From Micromonospora sp. FIMYZ51 (GTDB taxonomy: Bacteria; Actinomycetota; Actinomycetes; Mycobacteriales; Micromonosporaceae), in assembly GCF_038246755.1 (NCBI RefSeq), contig NZ_CP134706.1, positions 3,720,001-3,784,000 on the forward strand: DNA of 64,000 nucleotides, given 5' to 3'. The first letter of the stretch is position 1. Each line of letters begins with the position of its first letter. The notes beneath the pieces are model-generated. The model searched no databases. It was not told the DNA's origin and was given only the letters and a program-made list of their open reading frames with translations. The translations under genes were made by a program, and so were the position numbers. This document shows positions 56,678 through 64,000 of this stretch, in pieces.

Positions 56678-56980
56678 CTAGCCGCCGGCCATCGCACCGA
56701 GGATGATCAACGGTTCCTCGCCGGCCACGACCCGTTCGGGCAGGGGTGCGTCCGGTGCGGTGTTGGACAGATCCTCCTCGCAGGCGTAGAAGCGGACGAA
56801 GGCGCGGCGCCGGCCACTGTGCCGGTCCCGGATGGTGCCCAGCAACATCGGATAGCGCGCCTCGAGGGCGTCCAACACCCGACGCTGGGTGGCCGGCTCC
56901 GGGCCGAGCACCTCCACGCGTACCTCGCCGGTGACCTTCGCCAGGTTCTTCAGGTGGGCCGGAAGGACCACCCGGATCAC
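56678..56980 (-). CDS. MoaD/ThiS-like ubiquitin-fold protein
   Basis: A 100-residue protein. [24 protein letters not shown] and [13 protein letters not shown] resemble MoaD; the end [13 protein letters not shown] finishes in Gly-Gly as required for adenylation and sulfur carriage. GTG 56980 overlaps the upstream BNR stop (GTGA). No molybdopterin or thiamine genes are near, so it may serve another sulfur transfer or protein-tagging reaction. Confidence 0.87.
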
Positions 56981-58092
56981 GGCAACACCTGGACTTCGAC
57001 GGAGAGCACGGCCGGCAGGTCCCGGACGATCGGCGCCCAACTGTCGCCGCCGTCGGCCGAGTGGTAGACCTGTCCCCCGGTGGTGCCGAAGTAGACGCCG
57101 CACGGATCCAGCGTGTCGACGGCCATCGCGTCCCGCAGCACGTTGACGTAGCAGTGCGACTGCGGCAGGCCGGCGGTCAACGGCTCCCATTCGTCGCCGC
57201 CGGTGCGGCTGCGGTAGACGCGCAGCCTGCCCTCCGGCGGGTAGTGCTCGGAGTCGCTCTTGATCGGCACGACGTAGATCGTCTCGGGGTCGTTCCCATC
57301 CACCGCGATCGGGAAGCCGAAATCCGACGGCAGGTTGCCGCTGATCTCCCGCCAGTGCTCGCCGGCATCGTCGCTGCGCATCACGTCCCAGTGTTTCTGC
57401 ATGAAGAGCGTGTCCGGCCGGGACGGGTGCTGGGTGATGTGGTGCACGCAGTGCCCGACCTCGGCGTCGGTGTCGGGGATCTCCCCCGAACGCAGTCCCT
57501 TGTTTATCGGTGTCCAGCTGTCGCCGGCATCGTCGCTGCGGAACGCGCCCGCCGCCGAGATGGCGGTGTAGATCCGGCCCGGGTGCACCGGGTCCAGGAT
57601 GATCGTGTGCAGGCAGAGGCCACCGGCACCGGGCTGCCAGGACGGCCCGGTCGGGTGGGTACGCAGCGCGGTCAGCTCGGTCCACTTCTGACCGCCGTCG
57701 TGGGAGAGGTAGAGGGCGGCGTCCTCGGCACCTGCGTACACCGTGTCGGGGTCGTCGCGGGACGGTTCGAGGTGCCAGATGCGCTTGAACTCCCACGGGC
57801 GCGGGGTTCCGTCGTACCACAGGTGGTCACCGACGTCGCTTGCGTAGGTGAAGTCGTTGCCGACCGGGGACCAGTTCCGGCCGCCGTCGTCGGAGCGCTG
57901 GATCAGCTGCCCGAACCAACCACCGGACTGCGAGACGTAGAGCCGATCCGGGTCGGCCGGCGACCCGGTCAGGTGGAAGATCTCCCAGCCGCCGAAGTGC
58001 GGGCCGTCGACCGTCCAGTCGCCGCGCCGGCCGTCCGAGGTCAGGATGAACGCGCCCTTGCGGGTGCCGACCAGCACCCGTACGCCGCTCAT
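56977..58092 (-). CDS. Cytosolic BNR/Asp-box beta-propeller protein
   Basis: A 371-residue propeller without a signal peptide. Asp-box-type motifs: [59 protein letters not shown]. It begins [17 protein letters not shown], a form seen in many actinobacterial and environmental genomes next to a MoaD-like gene. No enzyme activity is known. ATG 58092 with GAGG upstream. Confidence 0.85.
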
Positions 58093-58320: not shown

Positions 58321-58359
58321 CCGCCCCTCCCAGTCAGGAGCGGCTGGTGTCAGGGGCGG
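58321..58359 (-). terminator. Stem-loop at the end of the SLOG-RyR-STAND operon
   Basis: Arms CCGCCCCT (58321-58328) and AGGGGCGG (58352-58359) around the SLOG stop codon. Confidence 0.4.
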
Positions 58360-58859
58360 CGGGGGGCTCGGCGGGCGTCGGCGGGCCAGAGGATCGTGGT
58401 CGGGATGGCGCGCTGCCGGGCCAGCTGCACCGTCCGGTCGGTGGACGCCGCGTGGCAGCCCGGCTCACCGTCCCAGACCGCCACCAGCCGCTGCACCCGG
58501 TTGAGCAGTTCCCGGTTGGCGGCCACGTAGGCGGCGGTGCCGGAGCTGCGGTGGCCGGTGTGCACGACGTGTGTCGCCCGACCCAGCAACTCGTCGAACT
58601 CCGCCCGGTGCGCCGGGTCGATCGTGTTCCGGTAGTCCGGGGCCGGCAGGACCACCTCGTAGCTGCCACCGGCGGCCAGGACCGTCCGGGCGAAGATCTG
58701 GTCGGTGCCGGCCGCCAGGCAGGTGACGCCGTGCACCGGCCGGTCGCTGAGCCGCCGCAACTCGGCTCGCAGGGCGTCGGCGACGAGCCGTTCGGTGGCC
58801 GGCGTCAGGTGGATGTGCCCGGTGATGCCGACGCGCAGCGGGCTGGAGTCAGTGGCCAT
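58350..58859 (-). CDS. SLOG-like nucleotide-sensing domain protein
   Basis: A 169-residue Rossmann-like protein: LRVGITGHIHLTPATERLV at the N-terminus, HGVTCLAAGTDQIFARTVLAAGGSYEVVLPAPDY in the middle, VAVWDGEPGC later. This pattern fits the SLOG (SMF/DprA-LOG) superfamily, which binds or processes nucleotides and is common in conflict systems. Starts inside the end of the RyR gene (11-bp overlap). A generic LOG-type phosphoribohydrolase is less likely since the PGGxGTxxE motif is missing. Confidence 0.7.
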   Translation of the reverse strand: MATDSSPLRVGITGHIHLTPATERLVADALRAELRRLSDRPVHGVTCLAAGTDQIFARTVLAAGGSYEVVLPAPDYRNTIDPAHRAEFDELLGRATHVVHTGHRSSGTAAYVAANRELLNRVQRLVAVWDGEPGCHAASTDRTVQLARQRAIPTTILWPADARRAPRRP

Positions 58860-60651
58860 CGGCCGATCCTCCCCGCTGCTCGGGCACGGCGGCGGTCAGC
58901 CGGATCAGCTCGAACCCACTGTCGGACAGCACGTCCGGCAGCGTACGGATCTCCTCCCGGTTCTGCTCCTGGATGGCGGGGCTCAGCTCGTCCCACGGCC
59001 GCAGTTCGGGGTGCCGCTGCCGGGCGTCGTCGCGCGGCTCGCCGTACGTCCAGCCCTCGCCGCGCCGTTCCCGACACCACCGCTCGTGTTCGAGTCGGGC
59101 CAGGTGGTCGATCCGGTCGTCGATGGCCTGCCCGGCCGCCGAGGCGTCACCGCTGCCGCCGTGCCGGGGCGCCACCACGCAGCCGAGATCCAGCAGTTTG
59201 GCGGCGATGTCCTGGACGTAGCTGCGGTTCGCCCGTTGCAGCGACGCGGGCAGCCGGGACCAGCCCACCATCGCCGGTGCCGAGCCGAGCCGAGCCCCGG
59301 AGCGCAGCCTGGTGTGCAGGTAACGTTCGTGGATCTGCTGGGCCAGCCGCTCGGTGAGGTCCTCGGCGATCAACCGCGCGTCGCAGGCCTCGGTCAGCAC
59401 CGGATACAGGCGCAGCTTGCCGTGCACCTCGTCGAGCAGGTCGTGACCGGGGTCGCCGTGGAACGCGGCGGCGAGCGCGGCCTGCCGGTAGACCGGCACG
59501 AAGACGGCCTCGCGTACGCCCTGCCAGAGCCCCGGGGTGTCCAGCACGAACTGGAGGCCGCTGCTCTCCTGCGGGACGCATACGTAGATCCGGTCGTAAC
59601 CGCCCGCGCCGAACTGCGCCAGCCCGGTCAGGTCGTCGATGCCCCGGTCGTACGCCGACAGCTGGCAGACGGTGTCCAGGAACGGATAGCGCGAGGCGGC
59701 GAGGGCCAGTTCGGTGCTGGCGTCCGGTGCCACGAGGTCCACCCGCAGCCGTGGCCGGGCGATGCCGGGCTCGCTCGGGTGGGCGCGCCAGTGCCGGGCG
59801 GTCTCCACCAGCAGCGCCCGCCGGAAGCTGCCGCTGCCGGCGATGAGCACGCTTGTCTGTCGGCCCACGGCGCGGTGCAACGGGTGGTGCCGGTGCAGGG
59901 CGCGGGCGGCGATGTCGTCGACGTGGAAGTAATCCAGCCGCAGCCGGCTGGATCCGGCCGCGCCCAGCCGCCGGGCCTGCAACGACAGGCACATCTCGGG
60001 ATCGTGGACCTGGACGTAGACCCGGGGTGGGTGCCGACGGTCGGCGATCAGTCGGCTGGCCGCGTTGGCGATCGCGTGGTTCAGGTCGTCGTCATGGGTG
60101 CAGGCGTAGATGGTGTGGGCGCGTGGCAGGCCGGCACCGCGCAGCACCTCGGCACTGGTCGGGTCGCCGATCACGCCGAGATACCGGCGTCGGCGGTACT
60201 CCAGCGGCCCGAAGGGTTCCGAGCGCACCACCACCACTCGTTCGCCGTCGGCGAAGAGTCGGTCGGCGAGCATCTGGGCGAACTGGGAGTCCCCGCAGAC
60301 CAGCGCGTGACCGCTGGCCCGTCGGGCGCGCAGGCGACGGATCTCGGCGGCCAGCAGCAGCCGGCCGGCCTCGGCCACGGCCAGCAGGGTGAGCAGCGGG
60401 GCGAGGAACCGGGCGACCTGCAACTGCCACGGCAGGGGGCCCGGATCCTCGAAGGGTTCGGCGCTGAACACGAAGAGCTGGGCGCTGTAGTAGAGCGCGT
60501 CGTACCGGTCGTTTATGGTGTCCGGTCGGAGCTGCCCGAGCCGTTGGAAGCCGAGGTAGCCGAGGATCAGGGCGGTCAGGCCGACGATCACGAAGGCCCA
60601 GCGCAACCACCACACGGCCGGGCGGGCGAAGCCGGCGACCGGGTGCGTCAT
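58849..60651 (-). CDS. Two-TM RCK/TrkA-N protein with C-terminal RyR domain
   Basis: A 600-residue protein. Helices at ~14-35 and ~82-102 bracket a pore-like segment (RYDALYYSAQLFVFSAEP). Then a TrkA-N/RCK domain (GHALVCGDSQFAQMLADRLF; VIGDPTSAEVLRGAGLPRAHTIYACTHDDDLNHAIA), a second Rossmann domain (TSVLIAGSGSFRRALLVETA), and near the end an RyR domain (LEHERWCRERRGEGWTYG, HPELRPWDELS). It looks like a nucleotide-gated membrane effector. ATG 60651 overlaps the STAND gene's stop as ATGA; the further upstream in-frame ATG is ignored. Confidence 0.82.
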   Translation of the reverse strand: MTHPVAGFARPAVWWLRWAFVIVGLTALILGYLGFQRLGQLRPDTINDRYDALYYSAQLFVFSAEPFEDPGPLPWQLQVARFLAPLLTLLAVAEAGRLLLAAEIRRLRARRASGHALVCGDSQFAQMLADRLFADGERVVVVRSEPFGPLEYRRRRYLGVIGDPTSAEVLRGAGLPRAHTIYACTHDDDLNHAIANAASRLIADRRHPPRVYVQVHDPEMCLSLQARRLGAAGSSRLRLDYFHVDDIAARALHRHHPLHRAVGRQTSVLIAGSGSFRRALLVETARHWRAHPSEPGIARPRLRVDLVAPDASTELALAASRYPFLDTVCQLSAYDRGIDDLTGLAQFGAGGYDRIYVCVPQESSGLQFVLDTPGLWQGVREAVFVPVYRQAALAAAFHGDPGHDLLDEVHGKLRLYPVLTEACDARLIAEDLTERLAQQIHERYLHTRLRSGARLGSAPAMVGWSRLPASLQRANRSYVQDIAAKLLDLGCVVAPRHGGSGDASAAGQAIDDRIDHLARLEHERWCRERRGEGWTYGEPRDDARQRHPELRPWDELSPAIQEQNREEIRTLPDVLSDSGFELIRLTAAVPEQRGGSADGH

Positions 60652-63600
60652 CGGGCGGTGCCCTCGGCCGGCGGGTCGGGCGGCGGCGGGTCGGGCGGCA
60701 GCCAGGCCAGCCGGAGATGATAGTGGGCCGCCTGATCCGCGAACCACTGCCGCACCTCAGCCTCCGGCGTGGCCGTGAGGGCGGCCACCCGGGCGAGGTG
60801 GGCCTCGGTGATCGGTTCAGCCGGATCCAGAAACGGGTCCAGCCCGTCCACGTCCCGGGAGAGCAGTCGCGCGTGTTCACGCCCGTTGCGGTGGGCGAGC
60901 GCCCGCAACGCGTTATGCCGCACCATCCCGTCCTGGTCGGCCAGGAGCGCAGCCCATTGCGCCCGGTCAACGGGCATCGACGGGGGCAGGACGCGGGTCG
61001 CGCCCCGACGGCGGACCGGATCCTCGCTGCCGAGGAACTCCTTGATCAGCGAGACCAGCCACGACGGTGTCTCCCCGGCCGGCAACACCCGCTGGATCAC
61101 CCCGGGGTCGGACTCCCGGCGCAACAGGTCGCAGGCGCCCTGGATGTCTTCGCTGCTCTCGCTGGCCACCGCCAGCCTGATCGCCTCACGCAGGCCGAAC
61201 TCGTGCAGTGCGCTGGTGTCCGAACGGGCTGCGGCAGCCACCAGCAGGCGCCGATCCGCAGCGGGGAGCAGCGGCAGCCAGGTCGACAACTCCCGGTCCC
61301 GGGCGGTACCGGAGCCGAGCGGATCCGTTCGCACCTGAGTGGTCAACGCCTGCTGTAGCCGATCTGCGCGACCGTCGCGAATCCGGAAGCTGTGCACGTC
61401 GAGCGCGAGGCGGGTCAGCGCATGGATCCGGACCCGCTCATTGGCATCTGTCTCGGCCAGTTCCAACAACACGCGCCACTGCTGCGACGAAAGAGGCCCG
61501 GAGCCGTGCGGGGCCTCTGCCGAGGAGGCCCAGGACGACAGCACGTCGCGCTCATCATGCGAGGACAGCGGAAAGAGATCCGCCAGCAGCGCCACTCGGA
61601 GCCGGTCGTCCGGATCGGTACGCAACCGCTGGTACAGCTCTGCCGCCGGCAGCAGGTAGTGACTTCCTGCGGTGCGCAGCGCGGTCAATCGCGTCTGCGG
61701 GTCGGGATCGTGTGTCAGCGCCAGCAACGCACCGATGTCGACGGTCCGGTCGCCGGCGTCCAGCAGACGCCGCAGCGCCCCGGCCCGCACCAGCGGTGCC
61801 GGGTCGTCGCGCGCGACCACCCGCAGGTCGTCAGGAAATCCGTCGTCGTCCGGCAGCAGCGCGACGGCCTCGGCGCGTACGGCGGGACGAGGGTGCGACA
61901 GCGCCGCCACGAGCGCCTGCGGGCCGGCCTGCCGGGCGACCGCTCGAAGCACCACATTCAGCTCATCACCGTCGAGGTCGAGGTGACCGATCTCGTGTAC
62001 AAACGCGCTCACCTCGGGCCACCGCCGCAGCTCGCGCGCGACCACGCCAGTCAGGTTGACCGTGGAAGCGCCGGTCGACGACAACTCGCCGAGCGCCGCC
62101 AAGAAGGTCGTCGGGACCACGGCCAGCGGCGGCATCGACGGCACGCCGGGCGGCGGTACGTCCTCGGGTTCGGCCGCGCCGAGTTCCCGCAGCGTCGTCC
62201 GGGCCCGATCCAACCCCTCCTGGTATGCGTAGGGCGGACCGTCGCACCATGCGGTCCGGTACGCCTCCCGGGCAAGCTCGACCGCCCGGTCAGCGGCTCC
62301 GGCGGCCTGTTCGATGCGGCTGAGCAGATTCAGCGCGTCGGCCCGCCGCAGCCGCAGTTCGGTGTGCGCGACAAGCGACTGGGCCTGCTGGTGACAGCTA
62401 CGTGCTTCCGCCAGGTCACCCCGCTTCAGATGCCAGTCGCCCAGTTCGAGGAGCACCTCGGCCTCGGCTCGCACCAGTTCGCCAGTGCGCGCCCGGGACA
62501 GGGCGTCCTGGAGGATCAGGCCGGCCTCGTCGTCGTCTCCCCGGGCCGAGGCGACCTGCGCCCGCAGCCCGGCACCCACCACCCGGGCCAGTAGCCCTCG
62601 CTCATTGAGCTCAGTCGACTCGAACAGCTCGCACATTCGTGCGGCGACCTCAACGTTTCCCCCCTGGAGCTCGATCCGCGCCTCGTGCACCAGGCTCTCG
62701 GTCAGGACTGCGACGACCGGGTCGGTCAGTCGGTGATCACGCAGCCAGCGCAACGCCTCCCATCGCTCGCCTCTGGTCGCCAGGATTACCGCAAAGGTGC
62801 TGAGCAGCAGTTCCATGCCCTCGTCGACGCTGTCGGCGCCAGCCGCGTCCGCCAGCGGACCGCGCACGGTCCGCTCCGCGGCGACCAGCTGCCCGGTCGC
62901 CAACAGGGCCCGCGCACGCACCAGCGCGACAAGCGCCTGCTCTTCCCAGGAAGCATCGACCATGTGTGCCTCGGCCCGCTCGCACGCCGCCAGCGCACGT
63001 GCCGGCCGGCCGCACATCTCCTGCAACCAGCCGAGAAAGGTGATGAACTCCACCAGGTCCGACCGTTCACCCAACACGCTTATGGCACCCGCGTCGACCG
63101 CCGCCTCGGCGATCTTCACCACCTCACCAAGAACCGCAAGTTCCAGCAGCGGATCCATCAGCCGGTTCTCGAAGATGTCGAACGCGTCCGCGACATGCCC
63201 GAGCGCCAGCAGCGTGTGGTAGTGCTCGATCGTGCCGCTGAGATCGTCCACACTGGCGATCTCGCTGTCGGCCACCATGGGCAGCGACTCGAAGTGACCG
63301 GCCAGGTCGCGGTAGATGCCGCGCTGGTCGCCGGCGTCAAGCATCGACCAGGCCACCGCCCGGACGATCGGATGCAGGTCGTACCGGTTGGCCACCTTCT
63401 CCCAGCCCAGCAGACCGCGGTCCTCCAGCTCGCCCAGCGCGCGGTCCAGTTCCGGCTCGGTGGCGAAGGGCCGGCCCTCGCCCACCAGCAGGGCGCGTAG
63501 CGCGTGGTAGGTGGCCGGCATCCGGAACGCGGCGACGACGTGCAGGGTACGCGCCAGGGCGGCAGTGAGACCGCGCAGCGCGTGCGCCAGCACGTGCGAG

Positions 63601-64000
63601 TTGCGCAGCCGCAGGTCCAGGGAGTTCGGGTCGAAGGACGGATTCGCGGCCCGCCAGGCGGCGAAGTCACCGGGACTGCCCCGGAACCGGGCCACCTCGC
63701 CGGCGAGGGCCCGGATCAGCAGCGGATAGTTGCGGAAGCTGGCGAAGAGGTGGACCAGTTCGGCCCGGCTGCCGCTGACCCCGAACGCCCGCCAGAGCGC
63801 CACCGCGTCGTCGTCGGACAGCCCGTCGAGGAAGTACGCCGACACGCCGGCGATCGGCGCGGTGGTGACGGTTTGCAGGTCGGCCGGGAAGAGGCGGGTG
63901 CTGATCAGGATGCGGCTGGCCCGGACCGTGGTGAGTCGGCGCAGGAAGGCGCCCACCCGCTGGTCGACCGTGTGGCGCAGCCGGGACTGACCGGTGAACG
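60648..64000 (-). CDS. STAND-like NTPase with TPR and HEAT-like repeats (5' end beyond window)
   Basis: At least 1116 codons; the frame is open to the right edge. The first visible part (LTTVRASRILISTRLFPADLQ, then LDGLSDDDAVALWRAFGVSG and a winged-helix-like LEDRGLLGWEKVANRYDLHPIVRAVAW) is the end of an NB-ARC/STAND NTPase; Walker A and B would lie outside the window. Residues ~250-560 are TPR-like helical pairs, and ~620-1050 HEAT-like repeats (HPRPAVRAEAVALLPDD, HDPDPQTRLTALRTAG). This is a ligand-sensing, oligomerising switch protein. Its stop overlaps the RCK-RyR start. Confidence 0.82.
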   Translation of the reverse strand, partial: FTGQSRLRHTVDQRVGAFLRRLTTVRASRILISTRLFPADLQTVTTAPIAGVSAYFLDGLSDDDAVALWRAFGVSGSRAELVHLFASFRNYPLLIRALAGEVARFRGSPGDFAAWRAANPSFDPNSLDLRLRNSHVLAHALRGLTAALARTLHVVAAFRMPATYHALRALLVGEGRPFATEPELDRALGELEDRGLLGWEKVANRYDLHPIVRAVAWSMLDAGDQRGIYRDLAGHFESLPMVADSEIASVDDLSGTIEHYHTLLALGHVADAFDIFENRLMDPLLELAVLGEVVKIAEAAVDAGAISVLGERSDLVEFITFLGWLQEMCGRPARALAACERAEAHMVDASWEEQALVALVRARALLATGQLVAAERTVRGPLADAAGADSVDEGMELLLSTFAVILATRGERWEALRWLRDHRLTDPVVAVLTESLVHEARIELQGGNVEVAARMCELFESTELNERGLLARVVGAGLRAQVASARGDDDEAGLILQDALSRARTGELVRAEAEVLLELGDWHLKRGDLAEARSCHQQAQSLVAHTELRLRRADALNLLSRIEQAAGAADRAVELAREAYRTAWCDGPPYAYQEGLDRARTTLRELGAAEPEDVPPPGVPSMPPLAVVPTTFLAALGELSSTGASTVNLTGVVARELRRWPEVSAFVHEIGHLDLDGDELNVVLRAVARQAGPQALVAALSHPRPAVRAEAVALLPDDDGFPDDLRVVARDDPAPLVRAGALRRLLDAGDRTVDIGALLALTHDPDPQTRLTALRTAGSHYLLPAAELYQRLRTDPDDRLRVALLADLFPLSSHDERDVLSSWASSAEAPHGSGPLSSQQWRVLLELAETDANERVRIHALTRLALDVHSFRIRDGRADRLQQALTTQVRTDPLGSGTARDRELSTWLPLLPAADRRLLVAAAARSDTSALHEFGLREAIRLAVASESSEDIQGACDLLRRESDPGVIQRVLPAGETPSWLVSLIKEFLGSEDPVRRRGATRVLPPSMPVDRAQWAALLADQDGMVRHNALRALAHRNGREHARLLSRDVDGLDPFLDPAEPITEAHLARVAALTATPEAEVRQWFADQAAHYHLRLAWLPPDPPPPDPPAEGTAR

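Follow-up and report, generated by a model that had tools for sequence, protein, structure and literature searches.

A DUF4062-STAND gene coupled to a conserved RCK-RyR/SLOG pair in Micromonospora: a possible nucleotide-signalling defence circuit

Why should a gene for a large STAND-type sensor be tied by overlapping codons to genes for a membrane protein with a ryanodine receptor (RyR) domain and a small SLOG-like protein? The question is posed by one end of the window analyzed here, a 64-kb stretch (G000:C1:3720001-3784000) of the genome of Micromonospora sp. FIMYZ51 (G000; 7.05 Mb on one contig), in which these three open reading frames (ORFs) all lie on the minus strand. Coordinates without a prefix are window positions, and L numbers denote fetched genome regions. 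An earlier note, made from the window alone, had proposed a nucleotide-signalling defence system in which the STAND protein senses, the SLOG protein handles the signal, and a channel-like RCK-RyR protein acts at the membrane. We give an even chance to the view that the operon is a nucleotide-signalling defence circuit, one that follows the logic of Thoeris with other parts; its NADase activity, signal, ligand binding, conductance, and action against phage are all predictions. The argument is built on gene coupling, domain content, the alignment of a catalytic Glu and of a ligand pocket, recurrent linkage, and co-occurrence across a bacterial family.

A coupled operon with a predicted NADase

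The proposal of a single coupled operon was borne out by the junctions: the STAND stop codon and the RCK-RyR start codon share an ATGA, and the RCK-RyR and SLOG genes overlap by 11 nucleotides (nt) (Table 1). The latter overlap was seen again in 17 of the 21 regions of Micromonospora (L007, L039-L054) and is therefore not chance. A same-strand flavin amine-oxidase gene precedes the longest STAND ORF by 51 nt, and the RCK-RyR ORF encodes 632 amino acids (aa) if an upstream GTG is taken as its start, or 600 aa from the ATG.

The window cuts the STAND gene, which in the adjoining DNA reaches L007:11064 (longest form, 1471 aa) or L007:11046 (1465 aa, the length of database copy P0219). The earlier note had proposed that Walker motifs be sought there, and a P-loop and a Walker B motif were indeed found to the right of the window; the motif script also gave a sensor-1 Arg motif (RILISTR, at aa 384). 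A DUF4062 domain lies to the right as well; it escaped the first reading because it, the P-loop, and Walker B are all beyond the window edge. No NB-ARC, NACHT, or other NTPase model of Pfam matched the STAND protein, nor did the TIR model, leaving DUF4062 as the only match of TIR-like kind. The repeats read earlier as TPR- and HEAT-like were recovered as TPR_12 (E 1.2e-5) and HEAT_2 (E 1.2e-4), both under their curated cut-offs. The predicted architecture is DUF4062-STAND NTPase-TPR-HEAT followed by a winged helix-turn-helix (wHTH). Its N-terminal two thirds place it in a large family: of 8000 candidates scored, 1324 proteins reach E<=0.001, and 49 genome loci were found in many phyla. Among the 120 matches listed, two others (P0220, P0221) align to it at 51% identity over 98-99% of the query.

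According to the main text of a 2026 preprint (PMC13174449), DUF4062 is a TIR-like NADase family that yields ADP-ribose and nicotinamide, and the DUF4062 protein KpSwz (Swarozyc) protects Escherichia coli against phage by abortive infection. STAND residues 13-106 match one solved relative, the DUF4062 chain of KpSwz (PDB 10wc, E 1.9e-8), with E90 opposite an Ala of 10wc. The position of that Ala fits the E97A construct described in the same text, an assignment made in the present analysis, and E90 is accordingly the predicted catalytic Glu. Because its DUF4062 matches a solved Swarozyc NADase with E90 at this position, the STAND protein is likely to be the signal-making enzyme, more so than the SLOG protein.

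The SLOG-like protein was considered for that part and rejected: its loop is degenerate in the genus while DUF4062 has the catalytic Glu. In this respect the earlier account stands as to nucleotide signalling, which still appears likely, and shifts as to the source, which is more likely DUF4062 than SLOG. For the small protein itself, Pfam yielded nothing convincing and the profile search of the PDB nothing at E<=1. Eight of 44 aligned homologues matched the YpsA SLOG model PF06908 at E<=1, all weakly (best 0.0021), and among the 120 homologues listed several are named DUF1273 and one DNA recombination-mediator. The motif GG[ST], which we take to be the SLOG nucleotide loop, is GGT-like in many relatives; its Gly pair is degenerate in 10 aligned Micromonospora sequences. 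Membership of the SLOG superfamily, as first suggested, is likely but not proven, with the homologues pointing to it and the protein's own profile search not.

A membrane protein with an RyR pocket

The membrane protein reads as two transmembrane helices followed by RCK and RyR domains (2TM-RCK-RyR), and profile matches upheld this part of the earlier description (Table 1). Its PDB matches include ryanodine-receptor repeat domains, the best at E 4e-29, along with RCK proteins of the TrkA/GsuK type (4j9u, E 2e-16; 4gx0, E 1e-14) and bacterial domains labelled "putative ryanodine receptor". The RCK domain carries G-D-[ST]-x-x-A where GxGxxG is expected, a degenerate dinucleotide motif, and a second, less regular RCK-like stretch was noted on inspection. 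A conserved segment of the YxxLQLFVLG type lies between the two helices in the alignment. Since the two-helix segment lacks a TVGYG filter, the channel role proposed earlier stays putative. Named homologues at 72-87% identity are from Micromonospora. One 431-aa database protein (P0095) joins, in a single frame, the HEAT C-terminus of a DUF4062-NACHT-HEAT protein (89%) to the N-terminus of RCK-RyR (75%), as a natural fusion or a sequence error.

The RyR domain suggests what the protein might bind. In a second 2026 preprint (PMC13232231), whose main text treats RyR domains as binders of cyclic ADP-ribose (cADPR), phage proteins with this domain are shown to break down or sequester 2'/3'cADPR by means of H75, W78, H100, and D117, and six of eight phage homologues tested bound it. 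H522, W525, and H547 of RCK-RyR are spaced as H75, W78, and H100, and N564 falls at the position of the catalytic Asp, D117; that position was set by residue spacing and an RyR1-chimera alignment, RyDEP itself not being aligned here. Across 53 aligned homologues the pocket residues are kept in 39 (H522), 52 (W525), and 38 (H547), and the Asp column holds N in 18, A in 13, C in 13, D in 7, and T in 2. With the His/Trp/His pocket kept and the catalytic Asp lost, the domain is more plausibly a receptor than a hydrolase: cleavage is not expected of most members of the family, which should only bind, and some may recognize a different ligand or no ligand at all. A hydrolase role in most of the family was rejected, the Asp being replaced in 46 of 53 homologues. 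Searches of phage DNA with the RyR region (tblastn) gave no match in one case and in another three matches at E 0.5 to 5, too weak for use.

The RCK-RyR/SLOG pair is the conserved unit

Distribution was examined in a sample of 250 genomes of the family, with RCK-RyR counted at E<=1e-10. It was found in 77 of these and was patchy within the genus (43 of 160 genomes). The 77 genomes yielded 78 regions (L007 and L039-L115), annotated with our own ORF caller, a crude tool that called no RCK gene in L074 and L115 and missed the SCO2521 gene that a separate search finds in L269. SLOG was present in 64 of the 78 regions and, in 62 of those 64 (exceptions L087, L104), lay no more than 365 nt downstream of RCK-RyR in the same orientation. 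It is this RCK-RyR/SLOG pair that forms the conserved unit. Among 396 genomes of the phylum outside the family, six further genomes had RCK-RyR matches at E<1e-100.

The window STAND gene was in none of the other 77 RCK-RyR regions. A fixed three-gene system was accordingly rejected, since none of the other sampled genomes of the family has a full-length version of the STAND gene; the three genes taken by the earlier note as one unit are coupled here, and it is the pair that recurs. Between the same amine-oxidase gene and the pair, L042, L045, and L046 have an intergenic stretch of 121 nt or more, where G000 has the STAND gene. The STAND gene appears to have been gained recently, which put the pair behind the STAND reading frame.

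Co-occurrence with a second DUF4062 gene

The pair has a more regular companion. In seven regions (L048-L054) a different DUF4062-NACHT-HEAT protein, of 1404-1417 aa, is encoded immediately upstream of RCK-RyR, and in five others (L063, L064, L067, L071, L072) relatives of it lie a few genes downstream; the domains were checked in L048 and L063. For the family survey a carrier of this gene was defined as a genome with a match starting at query residue <=15, which drops 17 of 64 matching genomes. So defined, 44 of 47 carriers have RCK-RyR (exceptions G200, G214, G224), against 33 of 203 non-carriers. Among 160 congeners the figures are 32 of 33 carriers (E<=1e-100; exception G706) against 11 of 127, and, counted by genus, RCK-RyR occurs in all 11 carrier genera and in 6 of the 33 others. 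Fisher tests gave 3.7e-23 (genus), 2.8e-24 (family), and 1.6e-6 (genera), values not corrected for descent. The usual family partner of RCK-RyR is this DUF4062-NACHT-HEAT gene, often unlinked: of the 32 congeners with both, 12 have them side by side and 20 have them at separate places or on different contigs. G000, one of the 20, has the partner at 2.69 Mb and RCK-RyR at 3.78 Mb. In one congener (G659) RCK-RyR (43% identity to that of G000) and the partner (46% to the query) both diverge from nearly all others of the genus, as if both genes had been brought in together.

All 12 fetched unlinked DUF4062-NACHT-HEAT loci (L258-L267, L269, L270) adjoin SCO2522/2523/2524-type genes, and 10 of the 12 have a called SCO2521 gene. 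In L258:2067-12275 and L259:7005-17199 the gene sits inside a cluster of SCO2521-SCO2525 homologues (a MinD-variant P-loop protein, a methyltransferase, and proteins of unknown role). SCO2521 occurs in 35 of 160 congeners, namely the 33 DUF4062-NACHT-HEAT carriers plus G674 and G704.

RyR genes keep company with NAD/ADP-ribose enzymes

By profile, DUF4062 was found in 73 of the 250 family genomes, and the same profile matched in 3 of 14 control genomes. Of the 78 RCK-RyR regions, 14 carry DUF4062-type genes, against 0.31 expected from their density in RCK-RyR genomes; the 14 represent about four arrangements and are therefore not independent. In L109 a DUF4062-NACHT gene lies 30 nt upstream of RCK-RyR. 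In tblastn searches, queries from the FxSxx-COOH system matched 21 of the 78 regions and TIR-type queries 7. At distant RCK-RyR loci, a TIR gene lies directly downstream in L149 and about 6 kb off in L146, with a TIR-type match on a short contig in L151.

Similar company was seen for RyR proteins that lack RCK. In L155, L157, and L158 a DUF4062 protein is encoded 97-98 nt upstream of one; the remaining four of these seven other RyR loci (L152-L158) gave no match with the queries used. In a congener without RCK-RyR (G003), a lone RyR gene of 100 aa that keeps the Asp shares 23 nt with a TIR gene, which also matches phosphorylase weakly, and NUDIX and macro-domain genes adjoin (L271:8926-13118), possibly forming a compact ADP-ribose signalling locus. 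In several settings, then, RyR domains keep company with NAD/ADP-ribose enzymes.

Further neighbours were recorded at these loci. RCK-RyR lies near genes for FxSxx-COOH ribosomally synthesized and post-translationally modified peptides (FxsB, FxsT) in L039-L041, L044, L055-L057, L087, L103, and others, with a TIR-like FxsC in L087; a link between the FxSxx-COOH system and ADP-ribose signalling is possible. Lone extra RyR genes cluster with RCK-RyR in L105, L107, and L109, and TIR-WD40 genes do so in L105 and L108 (Pfam) and in L107 (tblastn). An aminoglycoside 3-N-acetyltransferase-like protein, under the family's curated cut-off, is encoded beside RCK-RyR at L087:10309-11127. The DUF4062 protein of L155 (L155:3916-9961) is TEP1-like, DUF4062-NACHT-WD40 (Pfam checked in L155 only), with a 581-aa RyR partner; L155, L157, and L158 come from low-GC members of the phylum.

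A proposed circuit and its rivals

In the proposed circuit, the TPR/HEAT/wHTH half of the STAND protein would sense an infection cue and the NTPase would drive oligomerization; the TIR-like DUF4062 domain, once activated, would cleave NAD+ and release ADP-ribose or cADPR. The RyR domain, helped by the co-translated SLOG protein, would bind this NAD+-derived molecule as a receptor, upon which the RCK ring would open the two-helix membrane segment, the membrane would depolarize, and the infected cell would stop growing. More than one signal maker may serve the RCK-RyR/SLOG pair, which would make it a general effector. In G000, a second DUF4062-STAND, probably acquired horizontally, would then have joined the operon in addition to the usual DUF4062-NACHT-HEAT, which is unlinked here. 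A broader proposal likens the pair to the cADPR and ryanodine-receptor channels of animals: the host RyR membrane protein would be the receptor for an ADP-ribose-type messenger made by several different DUF4062/TIR-STAND sensors, all of them acting, in cis or in trans, on one RCK-RyR/SLOG effector. This is one we put forward tentatively and with less than even confidence.

Several observations weigh against the defence circuit. The window STAND gene is complete in G000 alone among the 250 family genomes, 11 others having partial matches at 28-46% identity, and a search of 16 further congeners for its C-terminal part came back empty, a result that is not proof by itself. The pair appears independent of the STAND transcript, because relatives without the STAND gene have an intergenic stretch of their own before it. 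No TVGYG selectivity filter of K+ channels was seen on inspection of the two-helix segment, H522 and H547 are kept in only about three quarters of the aligned homologues, and some homologues among the matches listed lack a precomputed RyR match. The products reported for DUF4062 in the main text of PMC13174449 are ADP-ribose and nicotinamide, with no cyclic ones. As for genomic company, 40 of the 78 RCK-RyR regions hold none of the DUF4062, TIR, or Fxs genes searched for, and three of the six distant loci (L147, L148, L150) have no TIR or DUF4062 gene in the fetched DNA. Co-occurrence was counted without species-tree correction, the test across 44 genera being a partial control only, and the nearly identical distribution of SCO2521 means that RCK-RyR may track the whole SCO2521-2525 cluster for another reason. 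For every member, the defence role stays a prediction.

A rival account makes the STAND protein a self-contained NAD-depleting defence protein of the Swarozyc or Avs kind, whose gene was inserted ahead of an RCK-RyR/SLOG pair that was already there and does something else; the gene coupling would then be a product of insertion and no sign of a common pathway. Its confinement to G000 and its placement at the intergenic stretch of L042, L045, and L046 agree with such an insertion, as do 49 DUF4062-NTPase-TPR loci (L179-L227), many on short contigs, that gave no RCK-RyR, RyR, or SLOG match at E<=1e-5; Swarozyc, by the main text of PMC13174449, acts alone. We nevertheless regard this account as rather unlikely: a chance landing beside a pair that tracks another DUF4062-STAND gene is improbable given the linkage excess noted above, the ATGA junction is precise, and RyR genes adjoin TIR or DUF4062 genes at several other loci. 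The setting of the unlinked partner raises another possibility, that the pair is a physiological or developmental module of the SCO2521-2525 cluster for ion homeostasis responsive to NAD or ADP-ribose, with DUF4062 proteins as stress sensors and defence secondary. The 12 unlinked loci beside SCO2522/2523/2524-type genes and the shared distribution of SCO2521 speak for it, and RCK domains usually regulate K+ flux. Against it stand the patchy occurrence of RCK-RyR in the genus, its linkage also to FxSxx, TIR-WD40, and TIR-PNP loci, and the STAND/TIR make-up, which is typical of defence; we judge it distinctly unlikely.

The pair might also be an off switch or sponge that removes or buffers the signal and limits self-damage, and not the killer. 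SLOG-fold enzymes can act on nucleotides, which would suit this role, and phage RyR proteins degrade or sequester cADPR (main text of PMC13232231). The replaced Asp of RCK-RyR counts against degradation, though not against a sponge; the degenerate Gly pair of the SLOG loop in the 10 Micromonospora sequences also speaks against this role, and a sponge would have no obvious need of membrane helices or RCK domains. We consider this very improbable.

Comparison with known systems

The earlier note recognized no named system, and this held: four proteins had no match at E<=1 to PADLOC models, Avs included, in the 2023 library, which predates the Swarozyc preprint. The following comparisons draw on the main texts of PMC13174449 (Swarozyc, TEP1/NWD1) and PMC13232231 (Thoeris, RyDEP, sponges). 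Like KpSwz, the window STAND protein has a TIR-like DUF4062 domain with an aligned catalytic Glu and a C-terminal helix-turn-helix or winged domain; KpSwz, however, is a single gene of DUF4062 plus an auxiliary domain that acts by NAD+ depletion, whereas the window protein adds an NTPase, TPR, HEAT, and an RyR membrane partner. Thoeris likewise pairs an NAD-cleaving TIR-fold sensor with an effector whose domain is from a family that binds cADPR-type molecules, an activity that is predicted here. In contrast to Thoeris, DUF4062-STAND takes the place of ThsB, the RyR/RCK membrane protein that of ThsA, and SLOG is a separate small protein; none of the three window genes gave a TIR (ThsB), ThsA-type, or macro effector match. 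Membership in Thoeris, Swarozyc, or a PADLOC system was ruled out by the missing TIR/ThsA, the extra NTPase/TPR/HEAT, and the lack of a PADLOC match.

The RyR domain shares with phage RyDEP and sponge RyR proteins the PF02026 pocket His-x-x-Trp with a His 25 residues later, but it is encoded by a host, forms one protein with RCK and membrane helices, and has no catalytic Asp. In TEP1/NWD1-type DUF4062-NACHT proteins, DUF4062 stands ahead of a STAND NTPase as it does here, and human TEP1 has it beside a NACHT NTPase; the window protein differs in having TPR-HEAT-wHTH for WD40 and in belonging to a bacterial operon with an RyR membrane protein. With TrkA/GsuK-type proteins (4j9u, 4gx0) RCK-RyR shares the RCK (TrkA-N) domain, and differs in its missing TVGYG, its degenerate dinucleotide motif, and its C-terminal RyR domain.

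Burroughs et al., in 2015, reportedly listed SLOG and RyR as parts of nucleotide-centred conflict networks. Among the papers listed by literature searches, none was by title or abstract a report of an RCK-RyR/SLOG/DUF4062 system; the 2015 comparative genomics was not compared, and priority is not claimed. A term search of a 2020 eLife paper on conflict systems (PMC7159879) found no mention of RyR, TrkA, RCK, or DUF4062. RyR and ryanodine are absent from the main text of PMC13174449, DUF4062 and Swarozyc from that of PMC13232231, and RCK, TrkA, and SLOG from both. At the present locus DUF4062 and RyR come together in a single operon of a host, and the two are repeatedly linked and co-occur throughout a bacterial family. 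The chain of genes may form an alarm-to-channel immune circuit, with a predicted NAD-cutting infection sensor and a channel-like RyR membrane protein. If so, it would provide the sort of host receptor against which phage RyR proteins act, by mimicry or by disarming it, and add an ion-conducting type of effector, and the old question of whether cADPR acts directly on RyR-type domains would become testable in a small bacterial protein.

Feature coordinates and flanking genes

Table 1. Features of the STAND/RCK-RyR/SLOG operon in Micromonospora sp. FIMYZ51
Feature	Position	Strand	Basis
STAND gene (sensor, predicted NADase), 3' part	60648..64000	-	ORF; runs past right window edge
STAND gene, full	G000:C1:3780648-3785045 (1465 aa) or to 3785063 (1471 aa)	-	DNA right of window
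DUF4062 domain	aa 14-94 of 1471, beyond right window edge	-	Pfam E 1.2e-16, 61 bits vs cut-off 24.7
P-loop GGMGKS	aa 229-234, beyond right window edge	-	Motif script
Walker B IVLDG	aa ~309, beyond right window edge	-	Motif script
C-terminal winged helix, PF24410 wHTH-HSP90_Na-assoc	60738..60875 (aa 1397-1442 of 1471)	-	E 6.9e-8, above cut-off; coordinates computed from ORF
STAND/RCK-RyR ATGA overlap (probable translational coupling)	60648..60651	-	STAND stop TGA 60650-60648 on RCK start ATG 60651-60649
RCK-RyR membrane protein gene, 600 aa	58849..60651	-	ORF from ATG
Two hydrophobic helices (windows within aa 11-39, 77-104)	60340..60621	-	Hydropathy and alignment
TrkA-N/RCK domain	59980..60303 (aa 117-224)	-	Pfam E 6.2e-12
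RyR domain with H522, W525, H547, N564	58906..59121 (aa 511-582)	-	Pfam PF02026 E 1.6e-17
RCK-RyR stop/SLOG start overlap, 11 nt	58849..58859	-	RCK stop 58851-58849; SLOG ATG at 58859
YpsA-type SLOG-like protein gene, 169 aa (likely SLOG)	58350..58859	-	ORF, homologue profiles

On the downstream side, 257 nt from the SLOG gene, lies a gene for a BNR/sortilin-type protein (56977-58092) related to the F510_1955 glycosylhydrolase model with a score under the model cut-off; no reason was seen to count it as a member of the operon. The nearest defence-type genes among those tested, the rest of the window not having been scanned for defence genes, are found on the right, some 11 kb past the STAND start. 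There, a UvrD-type helicase gene (GajB/NERD-UvrD models, E 2e-26) overlaps a large helicase gene with a DruE match (E 6e-47); this pair (L008:2145-9928, equivalent to G000:C1:3796144-3803927) is possibly a separate defence system.

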